A DNA stretch of 31,068 nucleotides. Source: Porphyromonadaceae bacterium UBA3327. GTDB taxonomy: Bacteria > Bacteroidota > Bacteroidia > Bacteroidales > Muribaculaceae. The position numbers were made by a program, and so were the translations under genes. Below are positions 25,459 through 30,795 of this stretch, in pieces. Below the pieces are notes generated by a model. The model saw only the letters and a program-made list of their open reading frames with translations, was not told where the DNA came from and searched no databases. Location of the stretch: NCBI GenBank assembly GCA_002361155.1, contig DERZ01000058.1, positions 55,636 through 86,703 of the forward strand, given 5' to 3'. Numbering within the stretch: position 1 is the first letter of the stretch; every line of letters starts with the position of its first letter.

Positions 25459-26445
25459 TCACTCTTTTTTATGCGGCATGATTCTCTTGAGGAGGAACCT
25501 GATGAAGAAGCGGATGTCCGTGTTGAGGCTCCGTATGGGCGTGAGGATAGGTCTGAAGCGTTTTTTTCCCTTCGGGTCGCAGAATATGCTTATGCTCGAG
25601 GGATGGCATTCGACCTCGACTGTCTCGGGCATTTCCGCCACATCGCCGTCGATGTGGACTGTGCCGGGGAGTTTGCGGATGGTGGCTCTCGGTGTGCGGA
25701 TTGTCTGGATTATGATGTTGCTGTTGATTCGTCCCGTGAAAAGTTCCACTCCCACCATGACGCGGGTAAAAGGATCGCCGGAGTGTATCACCGTGATGTC
25801 GAGCACTCCGTCGTGGATCGAGGCCGTGGGGGCGATGAATGCGTTGTTGCCGTACTGCGACGCATTGCATACCGCCACAAGAAAGGCTTTCACCCGGAAT
25901 GTGGCTTCCGGAGTGGAGATCTCGTATTCCTCCGACCTGTACTTAAGGTAAACCTTGAATACGCTCTGCAGGTAGGTGATAAGTCCGCGTCGGCTTGCCG
26001 ATGAGAACTGGCGGCTCACTTCGGCGTCGAACCCCATGCCGAACGTGCAGAAAAAAGGGCGTCCGTTGGCTGTGCCGTAGTCGCATCTCTTGGGATAATC
26101 TGCCGCGATCACATCGATTGCCTTATCAATGTCGATTGAAAGAATCACGTGGCGGGCAAGCCCGTTGCCCGACCCGAGGGGGATGATGCCGAGCACAGTG
26201 CGGCTTCCGGCTATGCCGGTGGCAACCTCGTTGACCGTGCCGTCGCCCCCGGCGGCCACAACCGCGTAGTATCCCTTTTCGGCGGCTTCTCGCGCCAGCT
26301 CAAGCGCATGCCCCGCCCGTTCGGTGGCTTTGGTCTTAACTTCATATCCGGCGGCTTCCAGCCGGCGGTGCGCCGTCGCGATTATCTCCCGCTTCGGAAG
26401 TATCCCCGAAATGGGATTCACTATCAAAAGTAACTTTTTGCTCAT
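25459..26445 (-). CDS. Diacylglycerol/lipid kinase family protein (DagK/YegS-like)
   Basis: This 328-residue cytoplasmic lipid kinase has the diacylglycerol kinase catalytic domain at the N terminus. IVNPISG is the first nucleotide-binding segment, GGDGT at residues 66-70 is the active-site loop, and IPLGSGNGLARH follows. The C-terminal two-layer beta domain ends with IDGDVAEMPETVEVE, the conserved DGE-like element. The substrate (diacylglycerol, sphingoid base or other lipid) cannot be told from sequence; Bacteroidota make sphingolipids, so both are open. The tail is strongly basic. The upstream region carries two identical near-palindromes. Confidence 0.93.
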   Translation of the reverse strand: MSKKLLLIVNPISGILPKREIIATAHRRLEAAGYEVKTKATERAGHALELAREAAEKGYYAVVAAGGDGTVNEVATGIAGSRTVLGIIPLGSGNGLARHVILSIDIDKAIDVIAADYPKRCDYGTANGRPFFCTFGMGFDAEVSRQFSSASRRGLITYLQSVFKVYLKYRSEEYEISTPEATFRVKAFLVAVCNASQYGNNAFIAPTASIHDGVLDITVIHSGDPFTRVMVGVELFTGRINSNIIIQTIRTPRATIRKLPGTVHIDGDVAEMPETVEVECHPSSISIFCDPKGKKRFRPILTPIRSLNTDIRFFIRFLLKRIMPHKKE

Positions 26446-26485
26446 GTTTAGTGTATAAAAACGCGATTTTAAGGCTTCTATGGGA

Positions 26486-26499
26486 ATGTTTTATAACAT
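26486..26499. repeat. Near-palindrome copy 1, candidate operator
   Basis: ATGTTTTATAACAT, with inverted ATGTT/AACAT arms, is identical to the copy at 26555. It lies in the predicted leader of the lipid kinase gene, downstream of its candidate -7 box. Confidence 0.5.
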
Positions 26500-26527
26500 A
26501 ATAGACTGTATAAATGCCAATTTTCTA

Positions 26528-26535
26528 CAAAAATA
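26528..26535 (-). promoter_or_regulatory. Candidate -7 box for the lipid kinase gene
   Basis: Minus-strand TATTTTTG matches the -7 consensus, 83 bases upstream of the start at 26445. There is no TTTG at the -33 distance; instead palindrome copy 2 begins exactly 19 bases upstream, where an activator could act. Confidence 0.45.
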
Positions 26536-26554
26536 ACTAAAAATATCGAAAATT

Positions 26555-26568
26555 ATGTTTTATAACAT
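26555..26568. repeat. Near-palindrome copy 2, candidate operator
   Basis: This is a second exact copy of ATGTTTTATAACAT, 69 bases from the first. It covers the -33 position of the lipid kinase promoter and ends 9 bases before the -33 box of the divergent small-RNA promoter, so one regulator could control both directions. Confidence 0.5.
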
Positions 26569-26577
26569 CACATTTTT

Positions 26578-26609
26578 TTTGGAATCGCTTTTCAGATGAA
26601 GTAATTTTG
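26578..26609 (+). promoter_or_regulatory. Consensus promoter of the predicted small RNA
   Basis: TTTG at 26578-26581, a 20-base spacer and TAATTTTG at 26602-26609 give a full match to the Bacteroides promoter consensus on the plus strand. No plus-strand gene follows until 30034. Confidence 0.75.
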
Positions 26610-26614
26610 CGGTG

Positions 26615-26840
26615 TAAAAAATGAGAAATGAGAAAAGCCTTATAGGTACAACATAGAACCTTAATACCGATTTATCTTAGGTCTAATGCCTGAAAAACGG
26701 AAGTGATAAAATATTAACTGAAACAACAGGGTAATTGATTATTATTTTGACCTTAATCTGAAATTGGAAAAAGATACCGGCGGGAGTCGTCAATCTTTCT
26801 CACGAGCTTTCAACGTTCTGTTGGGGGCTCGTTAGTTTTT
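26615..26840 (+). ncRNA. Predicted stand-alone structured small RNA, about 225 nt
   Basis: The transcript is bounded by a consensus promoter (-7 box ending at 26609) and an intrinsic terminator at 26802-26840, with no plausible protein gene inside. The body can fold as a long imperfect rod. TGAGAAA (26629-26635) pairs with TTTCTCA (26796-26802), GCC with GGC (26779-26781), and GGTA (26645-26648) with TACC (26775-26778). CCGATTT (26667-26673) pairs with AAATTGG (26761-26767), then TTA/TAA and GGTC/GACC, and an apical AAAATA/TATTTT arm closes it. A rod with internal bubbles is reminiscent of 6S RNA, but I cannot assign a family. An 11-codon ORF (MRNEKSLIGTT) opens at 26621 and is probably incidental. 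It shows no marks of tmRNA, SRP RNA or RNase P RNA. Confidence 0.6.
26802..26840 (+). terminator. Intrinsic terminator of the predicted small RNA
   Basis: Arms 26802-26814 and 26820-26832 form a 13-bp stem with a 5-base loop, followed by TAGTTTTT. Three consecutive pairs are U-G wobbles (TTT against GGG), which pair only in plus-strand RNA; on the minus strand they would be A-C mismatches. This sets the direction as plus. Confidence 0.8.
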
Positions 26841-26871
26841 CAGAATAATCTTCCGGATAATACAAGAACAA

Positions 26872-26904
26872 CAATGGCGGAAGCAATGTTTGCTTCCGCC
26901 ATTG
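26872..26904 (-). terminator. Terminator of the M3 peptidase gene, perfect 15-bp hairpin
   Basis: Arms 26872-26886 and 26890-26904 are perfect reverse complements around a 3-base loop. It starts 34 bases after the M3 peptidase stop. On the minus strand TTGTTCTTG follows. It could also stop leftover plus-strand read-through from the small RNA. Confidence 0.75.
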
Positions 26905-26937
26905 AATTGTCGTTATGTCCGGTCAGGCCGGAATTAA

Positions 26938-29061
26938 TTATTTCTTCTTGGCGGGTGCGAATCCGCGGAGTCGGAGAAGTGCGCCGGTATCGGGGGTGTG
27001 GCCGCGGAAACGCTTGAAGAGTACCATGGCGTCCTCGGTGTCGCCCGCCTGGAGAATGTTCTTCTTGAAGGAAGCCGCTGTCTTGGGGTCGAAGATTCCT
27101 TTCTCCTCGAATAGTTCCCATGCGTCGGCTTCGAGGACCTGTGCCCAGGTATAGGTGTAGTATCCGGAAGCATAGCCGTCATCGCCGAAGATGTGCTTGA
27201 AGTAGGGAGAGCGGTAGCGGAATGTGATTTCCTTAGGCATACCGATCTTTTCGGCTACCTCGGCCTCGAAGGCCGCGGGGTCGGCCACTTCCGTCTGCTG
27301 TCCGTACATCATGTCGAGAATGGCGGCTCCTACAGCCTCGGTGGTGACGAAGCCTTCGTTGAATGTTCCGCTTGCGGTGAGTTTCTCGATTACGTCATCC
27401 GGAATAGCTTCTCCGGTCTTGTAGTGGCGCGCATATTTCTTAAGCACTTCGGGAGCGAATCCCCAGTGTTCGTATAGCTGTGAGCAGAGTTCCACGTAGT
27501 CGCGGTCGACGTTGGTGCCGGCCAGCGACTTGTAGGGCGCTGTGGTGAGCATTCCCTGGAGAGCGTGGCCGAACTCGTGGAAGAGAGTCTCCACCTCGTC
27601 GAGCGTGAGAAGCGAGGGAGTCTCGGCTGTGGGTGCCGTGAAGTTGCCGACATTGTATACGATGGGACGTTTGTAGGAGCCGTCGCCGTAGAGACCGGCG
27701 CCCTGCATCTGTTCCATCCATGCTCCCTGGCGTTTGGTGGCGCGGGGGAAATAGTCGCACATCCAGACGGCTACATGTTCGCCGGTCTTGGCGTCGACCA
27801 CATCGTAGACCATCACATCCTCATGATATTTGGGAGCGTCGGGCATCGGGACCATCTTTACCCCGAAGAGTTTCTCCGTGGTGTCGAAGAGTCCTTTCTT
27901 CACGGCTTCGAGTTCGAAGTAGGGACGGAGGGCTGCCTCGTCGAGGTCGAATTTCTCCTTCTTTACCTTGTCAGCGTAATAGTAGTAGTCGTAGGGGGCG
28001 ATTTTGAAACCGCCTCCATGGGCGTCTACGTATTTCTGCATGTCCGCCACTTCCTCTGCGGAGCGGGCTACAGCCGGTTCGAACACCTGCATCAACAGTT
28101 CGGAAGCGGCCTCCGGGGTCTTGGCCATCACGCGGGAGGTCATCATCCTGGCAAAGTTGTCAAAGCCCATAAGTCTGGCCTTTTCATTGCGCAGCCTGAC
28201 TATCTCGGAGATGACCGGGAGGTTGGAATTGTCGCCGTACGATGCGAGGCTGGTGTATCCCTCGTAGACTGCCTTGCGGAGGCCGCGGTTGTCGGCATAC
28301 TGCAGCACGGGCAGACGGCTCGGTGCATGGAGCGTGAAGACCCAGAGACCGTCAAGGTTGCGGGCCTTGGCCTCCTGGGCGGCCATCGCCACTGATGACT
28401 CCGGCAGTCCGGCGAGATCCTGCTCGTCGTATACTACAACTGCAAACTGGTTTGTGGCGCTGAGAAGATTTTTGTTGAACTTGATGAAAAGTTTCGATAT
28501 CTGGTCATTGATCTTGACGAGTTGCTCTTTTTTGTCGGCGGGAAGAGCCGCGCCCTGCTCGGCGAACTCGCGGTAATATTTCTCCACGAGGCGCTTCTGC
28601 ACCGGTGTGAGTTTCAGCTTGTCGCGGGAGTCATAGACCTGACGGATGCGGTCAAAGAGAGCCTGATTGAGGTTTACTTTGTTGTTGGCCTCGTTCAGCA
28701 GGGGGATTGCCTGTTCCGACATCTCGGCGAACTCGGGAGTGCCGAGAGCCTCCATATAATGGTAGAAAACAGCCGCCACGCGTTCCAGAATCGGAGAGAG
28801 ATTCTCGAGCGGAAGGATGGTGTTGTCGAAATCGGGAGTGGCGCGGTTCATGACAATCGCGTTGATTGCGCGGTCCTGCTCCTCGATGCCGGCCTTGATG
28901 GCGGGGATGAAATCGGATGTGGTGATTTTGTCGAAAGGGGCGATTTCATACTTTGTGTCGTACGGCTGAAGGAATGGATTCTGTCGTTCGGCAGCCATGG
29001 CGGTCGTGGTGTTGACGGCGAGGAGCAGAGCTCCTCCGGCCAGAATGGATGATAATCTCAT
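26938..29061 (-). CDS. M3-family zinc metallopeptidase, secreted (dipeptidyl carboxypeptidase Dcp-like)
   Basis: This 707-residue thimet-oligopeptidase-family enzyme removes short peptides from oligopeptides. The zinc motif is H495-E-F-G-H499 (ETLFHEFGHALQGM), with the third ligand Glu downstream in the DRDYVELCSQLYEHW segment. The C-terminal GYYTYTWAQVLEADAWELF is the substrate-tyrosine region of the Dcp branch. From the start at 29061 the N terminus (MRLSSILAGGALLLAVN, then TTTAMAAE) is a cleavable signal peptide, so it is periplasmic; the longer frame to 29109 crosses toward the promoter. A consensus promoter lies 38 bases upstream. Confidence 0.95.
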   Translation of the reverse strand: MRLSSILAGGALLLAVNTTTAMAAERQNPFLQPYDTKYEIAPFDKITTSDFIPAIKAGIEEQDRAINAIVMNRATPDFDNTILPLENLSPILERVAAVFYHYMEALGTPEFAEMSEQAIPLLNEANNKVNLNQALFDRIRQVYDSRDKLKLTPVQKRLVEKYYREFAEQGAALPADKKEQLVKINDQISKLFIKFNKNLLSATNQFAVVVYDEQDLAGLPESSVAMAAQEAKARNLDGLWVFTLHAPSRLPVLQYADNRGLRKAVYEGYTSLASYGDNSNLPVISEIVRLRNEKARLMGFDNFARMMTSRVMAKTPEAASELLMQVFEPAVARSAEEVADMQKYVDAHGGGFKIAPYDYYYYADKVKKEKFDLDEAALRPYFELEAVKKGLFDTTEKLFGVKMVPMPDAPKYHEDVMVYDVVDAKTGEHVAVWMCDYFPRATKRQGAWMEQMQGAGLYGDGSYKRPIVYNVGNFTAPTAETPSLLTLDEVETLFHEFGHALQGMLTTAPYKSLAGTNVDRDYVELCSQLYEHWGFAPEVLKKYARHYKTGEAIPDDVIEKLTASGTFNEGFVTTEAVGAAILDMMYGQQTEVADPAAFEAEVAEKIGMPKEITFRYRSPYFKHIFGDDGYASGYYTYTWAQVLEADAWELFEEKGIFDPKTAASFKKNILQAGDTEDAMVLFKRFRGHTPDTGALLRLRGFAPAKKK

Positions 29062-29098
29062 TATTTGAAAGATTAGAAATAGTTTTAAGATTTGGAGA

Positions 29099-29129
29099 CA
29101 AAAATACAAAAAAATATCCCGGCGCCAAA
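29099..29129 (-). promoter_or_regulatory. Consensus promoter of the M3 peptidase gene
   Basis: Minus-strand TTTG (29126-29129), a 19-base spacer and TATTTTTG (29099-29106) match the Bacteroides consensus fully, with the -7 box 38 bases before the start codon. This supports the start at 29061. Confidence 0.8.
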
Positions 29130-30033: not shown

Positions 30034-30795
30034 ATGGCATCATTCAGCTCAAGAATAGACATACCGCCCGTAACCAAGAATCTGCTTGTCATCAATATCA
30101 TGTTATGGCTGGTGGAGTTCATATTTCCAGGTTTTGCCGAGCGGACCCTTCTTCCCCGCCTCGGGCTGCATTATATCGGCAGCGATCTGTTCAATCCAGC
30201 TCAGCTGTTCACATACATGTTCCTGCACGATCCTTCAGGGATCACGCATATATTCTTCAATATGTTTTCGCTCTGGATGTTCGGGCGGATTCTGGAGCGA
30301 GTATGGGGCGGCAAGAGGTATTTGCTTTTCTACCTGGTGTGCGGCGTGGGTGCCGCATTTGCACAGGAGGCTGTGTGGGCAATGACGTGGCGCCATGAGT
30401 ATATCCAGGGCATAGCCGCGCTCAACGGGTTGACCTACGACCACATGCAGCAGATTGTAGACCAGGCCACGGCAGCCGGTGATTCCGGATTTCTGGCGGG
30501 TATGGCCGACATGAAGAGCCGCATGATGACCGTCGGCGCTTCCGGCGCTATATTCGGTCTGCTGCTCGGCTTTGCTTTCGTGTTCCCCAACATGCCTCTA
30601 TATCTTTTCTTTATACCGGTTCCCATCAAGGCCAAATATATGGTGATCGGATACGCTGTTCTCGAATTTTTATTCGGGGTGCAGGGTGGCGGCACAATCG
30701 CGCATTTCGCCCACCTCGGAGGAATGCTGTTCGGGCTGGCCATGATGCTCTACTGGAAGAGGAAAGGCACCTTGCACGGCAATGGCTACTATTGA
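30034..30795 (+). CDS. Rhomboid-family intramembrane serine protease
   Basis: This 253-residue polytopic protease cleaves membrane helices inside the bilayer. The catalytic serine is S170 in GASGAIFG, and the partner histidine is H227 in HFAHLGGMLFG. The oxyanion-region HXXXN motif is in THIFFNMFSLWMFG, and WGGKR in the first loop region is also present. There are about six hydrophobic segments, plus a polar insert of some 40 residues (about 125-165) before the serine helix. It overlaps a second rhomboid gene by 14 bases. Confidence 0.94.
   Translation: MASFSSRIDIPPVTKNLLVINIMLWLVEFIFPGFAERTLLPRLGLHYIGSDLFNPAQLFTYMFLHDPSGITHIFFNMFSLWMFGRILERVWGGKRYLLFYLVCGVGAAFAQEAVWAMTWRHEYIQGIAALNGLTYDHMQQIVDQATAAGDSGFLAGMADMKSRMMTVGASGAIFGLLLGFAFVFPNMPLYLFFIPVPIKAKYMVIGYAVLEFLFGVQGGGTIAHFAHLGGMLFGLAMMLYWKRKGTLHGNGYY

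Follow-up and report, generated by a model that had tools for sequence, protein, structure and literature searches.

The question raised by this locus is whether the gap at 26446-26937 of the window (the whole stretch of 31,068 nucleotides that was analysed), between a diacylglycerol-kinase-like (DAGK-like) gene and an M3 peptidase gene, carries the gene of a small RNA (sRNA), and what such an RNA would do. The present analysis indicates that a real sRNA gene very probably lies at 26616-26840, and that the RNA is probably switched on by a sugar-shortage regulator. RNAs of this kind are already known; this member is new within the databases searched, as far as our searches show.

Layout of the predicted RNA gene

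The features of the locus are as follows.

25459-26445, minus strand: DAGK-like gene
26554-26569, no strand assigned: predicted Crp/Cur-type operator TATGTTTTATAACATC, with 1 mismatch over 14 positions to TATGTTnTAnAACATA (motif as given in PMC3878776)
26578-26609, plus strand: Bacteroidota-type promoter TTTG-N20-TAATTTTG, present in 19/19 homologs with N19 or N20
26616-26840, plus strand: predicted sRNA of ~225 nt, from homolog comparison and covariance model, the start being assumed 7 nt past the -7 box
26657-26690, plus strand: 5′ boxes AACCTTAATACCGA and GTCTAATGCC, in part of the homologs, the second able to pair with the core
26724-26758, plus strand: near-invariant core CAACAGGGTAATTGATTAT-TATTTTG-ACCTTAATC, from the homolog alignment
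26728-26732 / 26750-26754, plus strand: possible core hairpin AGGGT/ACCTT, predicted
26770-26798, plus strand: hairpin H2 with the GNRA-type tetraloop GGGA at 26782-26785, from per-sequence folds
26802-26840, plus strand: intrinsic terminator with a 13-pair stem including three U-G pairs, a 5-nt loop, and a T tail
26938-29109, minus strand: M3 peptidase gene

The full plus-strand promoter that had been proposed in a sequence-only reading of this DNA is confirmed, with TTTG at 26578-26581 followed, after N20, by TAATTTTG at 26602-26609, and all 19 homologs have the arrangement TTTG-N19/20-TAnnTTTG. The same holds for the intrinsic terminator, whose stem arms are 26802-26814 and 26820-26832. The three U-G pairs formed in plus-strand RNA correspond to A-C mismatches on the other strand, so that the terminator is predicted to work only in plus-strand RNA. 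A terminator-like hairpin recurs in 19/19 homologs, and a run of at least 5 T directly after the stem is found in only 6 of them. The long plus-strand stretch free of genes is real as well. Going downstream, the first gene of this strand to have a Pfam match is the rhomboid gene at 30034; shorter plus-strand ORFs in between, part of which were tested for such matches, are contained in minus-strand genes or adjacent to them. A further hairpin at 26872-26904 (15 pairs, 3-nt loop) ends the M3 mRNA and has a terminator score on both strands.

The genes around the unit differ from one homolog locus to another. The M3 gene is present in 13 of the 19 loci, on the strand opposite to the core in 9 and on the same strand in 4; in 11 loci it is no more than 650 nt away from the core. 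DAGK lies at most 600 nt away in 6/19, while neither gene is seen in 4, some of which are cut by contig ends. As these neighbors vary, the sRNA unit retains its own promoter and terminator despite changing surroundings.

Distribution, conservation and folding

A DNA search of 61 genomes retrieved the unit in the own genome and in 9 of the 36 genomes of the same genus, with none in the 24 others. The exact core 19-mer occurs in 18 contigs among 84,980 species genomes, a collection that possibly omits records very near the window's genome, and no match was found there outside this record group. The contigs are labelled Muribaculaceae (7), Porphyromonadaceae (4), Bacteroidales (4), "Bacteroides sp." (2), and Candidatus Amulumruptor caecigallinarius (1); the host genus belongs to the gut Bacteroidales, and to the Muribaculaceae by several homolog labels. 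Within the family, 9 of 297 genomes contain the exact 19-mer, all of them from the same genus. Another 12 places in these 297 genomes have 1-2 mismatches to it; they occur in other contexts, none being followed by ACCTTAATC, as judged by eye.

A covariance model built from the 19 homologs and run on 111 genus genomes matches 19 of them at E 4e-22 or better, with one match per genome; the 19 apparently correspond to the own genome together with the contigs listed above. Three weak matches (G390, G016, and G388, E 3e-4 to 7e-3) were rejected as chance: their 3.1-kb loci have no palindrome (at most 1 mismatch) anywhere, and the 400 nt on either side of the locus midpoint lack a TTTG/TAnnTTTG promoter. 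The relaxed searches (at most 2 mismatches in the 297 family genomes and the covariance model in the 111 genus genomes) gave no diverged versions of the core. The invariance of the core 19 nt among the contigs is, however, partly a result of selection, because the query was the exact 19-mer.

The 13 carriers included in a FastTree tree of the M3 peptidase fall in one putative group, which also contains a non-carrier, G321. In this genome, which lacks the sRNA, an IS110-type transposase gene (PF01548) lies beside M3 (L145). No palindrome (at most 1 mismatch) was found in the 1,000 nt beyond M3 in 28 chosen non-carriers of at least 91% completeness. A phage origin was considered and rejected, as the exact 19-mer has 0 matches among viral contigs.

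Comparison of the homologs shows the predicted sRNA gene unit and its conservation: promoter, near-invariant core (CAACAGGGTAATTGATTAT...ACCTTAATC), a subsequent GNRA-type hairpin with covarying pairs, and terminator-like hairpin are common to 19/19. An alignment of related genomes, suggested by the sequence-only reading as a check, bears out the promoter and the terminator-like hairpin, with covariation in the terminator and in H2. For the 3′ part of the 19 homologs, RNAalifold predicts 19 pairs. For 13 of these (11 in the terminator and 2 in H2), both bases are changed in at least one sequence while pairing is kept. The inner pairs of H2 vary between CG/TA, AT/GT/GC, and GC/CG/TA in the per-sequence folds, and a GNRA loop closes it in 16/19 homologs (GTGA in 8, GAGA in 4, GGGA in 3, and GCGA in 1), the other 3 having a GNRA-like pentaloop with one extra base.

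Both core arms, AGGGT and ACCTT, are invariant in the 19 homologs, and the linker between them is 3, 5, 6, 7, or 8 nt long. Length changes confined to the linker are compatible with a hairpin, but the arms are free of covariation. As an alternative, the core can pair with a CTAATACC-type box upstream of it in 9 homologs; the CTTAATACC/CTAATACC boxes are confined to part of the 19. The unpaired fraction is 0.43 for the core vs 0.51 for the remaining RNA, and the core is thus overall not more open, its more open parts being CAA and TTGATT.

The description of the RNA as one long imperfect rod is not supported by the folding analysis. The whole RNA folds with a z of -1.74, 11 of 200 shuffles being equally good, and the body without the terminator is no better than shuffled sequences (z -0.69, 60 shuffles). 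In the consensus fold of 9 full-length homologs there is no end-to-end pairing, and the sole long-range pairs are those of the CTAATACC box with the core. Nevertheless, the terminator-less body reaches a z of -2 or lower in 8/19 homologs, which suggests that the 5′ part is not unstructured in general but has structure in certain lineages.

A predicted Crp/Cur-type operator and its probable regulator

The best clue to the role of the RNA is the palindrome at 26554-26569, a candidate control element that the sequence-only reading overlooked although it noted the promoter. It matches the published motif TATGTTnTAnAACATA of Cur/BT4338, the Crp-family carbohydrate regulator of Bacteroides; the consensus reported for the Crp-like BT4338 is wwwTATGTTnTAnAACATAwww (as given in PMC3878776), and the regulator is now called Cur (see also PMC6989115 and PMC10294740). 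Comparison shows both the motif match and a fixed geometry. The palindrome is present in 19/19 homologs, with 0 mismatches over the 14 fixed TATGTTnTAnAACATA positions in 4, 1 in 9, 2 in 5, and 3 in 1, and its center lies 48 nt before the end of the -7 box in all 19. This holds even though the -33 box shifts by one base (spacer 19 or 20) and is at a distance of 16 or 17 from the center. The center is ~54 nt upstream of the assumed sRNA start.

The strict palindrome occurs at 3 places in the own genome, 2 of them within the sRNA gap. The second one in the gap, ATGTTTTATAACAT at 26486-26499, is nearer the DAGK start; inspection by eye showed no clear promoter with 48-nt spacing on the minus strand. 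Two palindromes are also present in L046. The third of the own genome (L050, near position 1501) lies beside an ORF that by eye resembles mutL.

We have also scanned the genus for the palindrome together with the promoter, which gave matches in 44 of 111 genomes and 58 strings. Length 55 is common to all 18 strings belonging to class A (sRNA of the window type); the pattern missed the nineteenth carrier, G372, which has GTGTT. Among the 39 distinct strings outside class A (3 of them from the sister RNA described below), 20 have length 55 and most others 56. With the same likelihood for every gap/spacer combination, 11% would be expected at length 55 (P 7e-10, ignoring the shared ancestry of some sites). 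The 48-nt operator spacing hence recurs across the genus, also ahead of carbohydrate and central-metabolism genes, namely those of cyclomaltodextrinase, glutamate dehydrogenase, ferredoxin, and acetyl-CoA hydrolase, the four ORFs scanned having been chosen by eye from ~20 loci. Other ORFs behind such sites, again by eye, are lipoproteins, a serpin-like protein, and unassignable ones. At two sites, L080 (G294) and L074 (G007), there is no ORF of at least 60 aa in the next 320 nt, and L080 has a hairpin with a T-rich tail ~210 nt after the operator-promoter site.

A Crp-family regulator is represented by one strong protein match (50-53 bits) in each of 8/8 genomes, with an additional weaker Crp-type match above the cut-off in G008 and G235, and the closest solved structure to the protein is 2gau, a Crp/Fnr-family regulator. 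A motif-like site (at most 3 mismatches) lies upstream of the crp gene in 6 of the 8 genomes checked; the crp gene of the own genome has none at this threshold. From family membership and uniqueness we infer that this protein is the counterpart of BT4338/Cur. With the operator at the promoter in 19/19 homologs and a Crp-family regulator in 8/8 genomes, it is likely that the sRNA is under Cur-type control.

Four of the 111 genus genomes, G308, G144, G027, and G017 (loci L083, L084, L085, and L175), have another sRNA-like unit, whose operator is of the same kind. The distance from the operator center to the -7 box is 48 in three of these genomes and 49 in the fourth, and the unit of G144 has a -33 box other than TTTG. 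The core of this second unit is TTTTCATAATCTACACACTC, followed by CCTTAAATC (CTTTAAATC in one genome) and a GC-rich inverted repeat. The class A sRNA is present in 0/4 of these genomes, and no genome has both units. The sister unit could reflect either replacement of the core or an independent origin. It is tempting to regard the two as an exchangeable starvation-sRNA module, in which one Crp/Cur-driven promoter of rigid 48-nt geometry would be joined to the core of the window type in one clade and to TTTTCATAATCTACACACTC...CTTTAAATC/CCTTAAATC in another, never both; we consider this idea speculative and rather doubtful. If true, members of one genus would have the same regulator connected to different post-transcriptional programmes.

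Mode of action and relation to known systems

Possible partners of the core were sought by a 20-nt antisense search of 19 genomes, which returned the 19 self matches and 5 other sites (1 for the reversed control) and gave no target conserved across the carriers. G009 and G350 have two of the five sites, which are orthologous to each other (72% alike) and located in an intergenic region with strong folding and a terminator-like hairpin at its end; Rfam gives no match to this region up to E 1. The region lies around position 1500 of the oriented loci L141 and L142, beside a gene that by eye resembles nadA. The pairing energies with the core are -31.5 and -29.8 kcal/mol, relative to shuffled means of -16.5 and -17.4, values that are biased because the sites were found by complementarity. 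A partner RNA of one sub-branch may be encoded there, or the match may be due to chance. Pairing of the sRNA with the crp leader, calculated for 6 genomes, is not consistently stronger than for shuffles, the best case being G023 (-21.2 vs -17.0, sd 2.8).

These results bear on an alternative in which a real, Cur-type-controlled RNA mainly titrates a protein or another RNA, the core and the GNRA hairpin being the binding sites. Such a role would fit the lack of a conserved mRNA target in the antisense search of the 19 genomes, the retention of the GNRA loop in the homologs, and the invariance of 19 core nt across 19 species genomes (in part a consequence of the query). In addition, the structured intergenic region around the core-complementary site of G009/G350 is possibly an RNA gene in its own right. 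However, no repeated binding motif is common to all homologs, the CTTAATACC/CTAATACC boxes being found in part only, and we judge titration to be unlikely as the main action, although it is the rival to be taken most seriously.

The remaining alternatives are far less probable. A 6S-type RNA that sequesters RNA polymerase, one of the hypotheses of the sequence-only reading, would agree with the length and the stand-alone intergenic position of the present RNA. A 6S RNA is expected nearly everywhere within a genus, whereas only 19/111 genus genomes carry this one, and neither the 9-homolog consensus nor the body z of -0.69 gives the end-to-end rod. The Rfam comparison that had been advised as a check left the window without a match above threshold, and all matches that it produced in the gap, with E values up to 10, are irrelevant; 11 homolog and sister loci have no match except an unrelated cobalamin riboswitch (RF00174, 87.7 bits) at L018 1517-1720, near that contig's sRNA. 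The Rfam 6S models may, however, be blind in this group: RF00013 and RF01685 have no match in the sets of 8 and 16 of its genomes that were searched, the RF01685 control is also silent throughout, and the silence of these models alone thus proves little. Although a Bacteroides 6S RNA exists (as reported in PMC7366714), the narrow distribution together with the lack of end-to-end pairing makes a 6S-like function very improbable here. What stands from the earlier interpretation is a real RNA, possibly of a new family, in line with the 19 homologs and their covarying GNRA hairpin. A small protein gene is hardly more plausible. The frame NRVIDYYFDLN runs through the core, and beyond the core box in 15/19 homologs, and a 5-codon ATG-CAA-rCA-ACA-GGG-TAA lies ahead in most of them, its ATG being present in 16/19. 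Linker indels disrupt the frame in 4/19, though, 18/19 have no in-frame ATG, and the mini-ORF ATG is missing in the window, L033, and L038. Similarly, the core DNA contains a short inverted repeat, TAAT-TG-ATTA, as read from the sequence, which would suit a DNA-binding site with an incidental transcript; the single exact core copy per carrier genome, set within a unit that retains promoter and RNA hairpins, speaks against it.

The reading that we favor, with moderate confidence as a whole, is that of a Cur-type-activated, trans-acting sRNA that works by base pairing. Here, a Cur/BT4338-type Crp-family regulator would bind the palindrome, centered ~54 nt ahead of the assumed start, and activate the TTTG/TAnnTTTG promoter, probably when preferred sugars are scarce. 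The resulting stand-alone intergenic RNA of ~225 nt would stop at its own terminator. The near-invariant core, with its open CAA flank and partly open TTGATT loop, is the likely pairing region for other RNAs, while the GNRA hairpin and the terminator may stabilize or dock the 3′ half. We infer the binding of the Cur orthologue, the activation, the inducing condition, and the pairing in trans from the comparisons above and from the analogy with MasB, a Cur-activated sRNA that represses an mRNA by pairing (as described in PMC10994844), which suggests a starvation-induced trans-acting regulator. Regarding the action itself, trans base pairing seems on balance the better candidate for the main role.

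Muribaculaceae are abundant in the mouse gut, and no sRNA study of this family was found in our literature searches. At this locus, an sRNA is combined with a predicted regulator, a defined candidate operator, and an invariant core, and one homolog is in a record labelled as an isolate (Isolate-036 Harlan, L036). If the proposed reading is right, other Bacteroidales also couple a carbon-shortage regulator to an sRNA, as shown for MasB of Bacteroides, using RNAs that differ in sequence.

Compared to the 6S RNAs, which are of similar length and likewise intergenic, the present RNA has no rod, no model match, and a narrow distribution. The Cur/BT4338 regulon of Bacteroides shares the operator consensus TATGTTnTAnAACATA (as given in PMC3878776), and some sites of the present genus likewise lie ahead of genes for carbohydrate use and central metabolism; here the genus is different and the sites are predicted ones only. 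Other B. thetaiotaomicron sRNAs are reported near BT4338 sites (PMC10294740), and HcpR is described as a transcription factor with an RNA partner of its own, SnoA (PMC13370916). GibS and the FopS sRNA family of Bacteroides resemble the present sRNA in being intergenic and in having conserved pairing segments and a terminator, with targets in carbon metabolism, according to the accounts in PMC7366714 and PMC11697453. As described there, the GibS/FopS seed is near the 5′ end, whereas the core of our RNA is 3′ of the middle, and GibS has a PM2 promoter in place of the standard TTTG/TAnnTTTG promoter found here. FopS comprises 14 copies of 65-70 nt as opposed to the single copy per genome found here. 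MasB (BTnc201) of Bacteroides thetaiotaomicron is, by its description in PMC10994844, ~100 nt long rather than ~225 nt; it is likewise intergenic and narrowly conserved, and it is Cur-activated and high in starvation.
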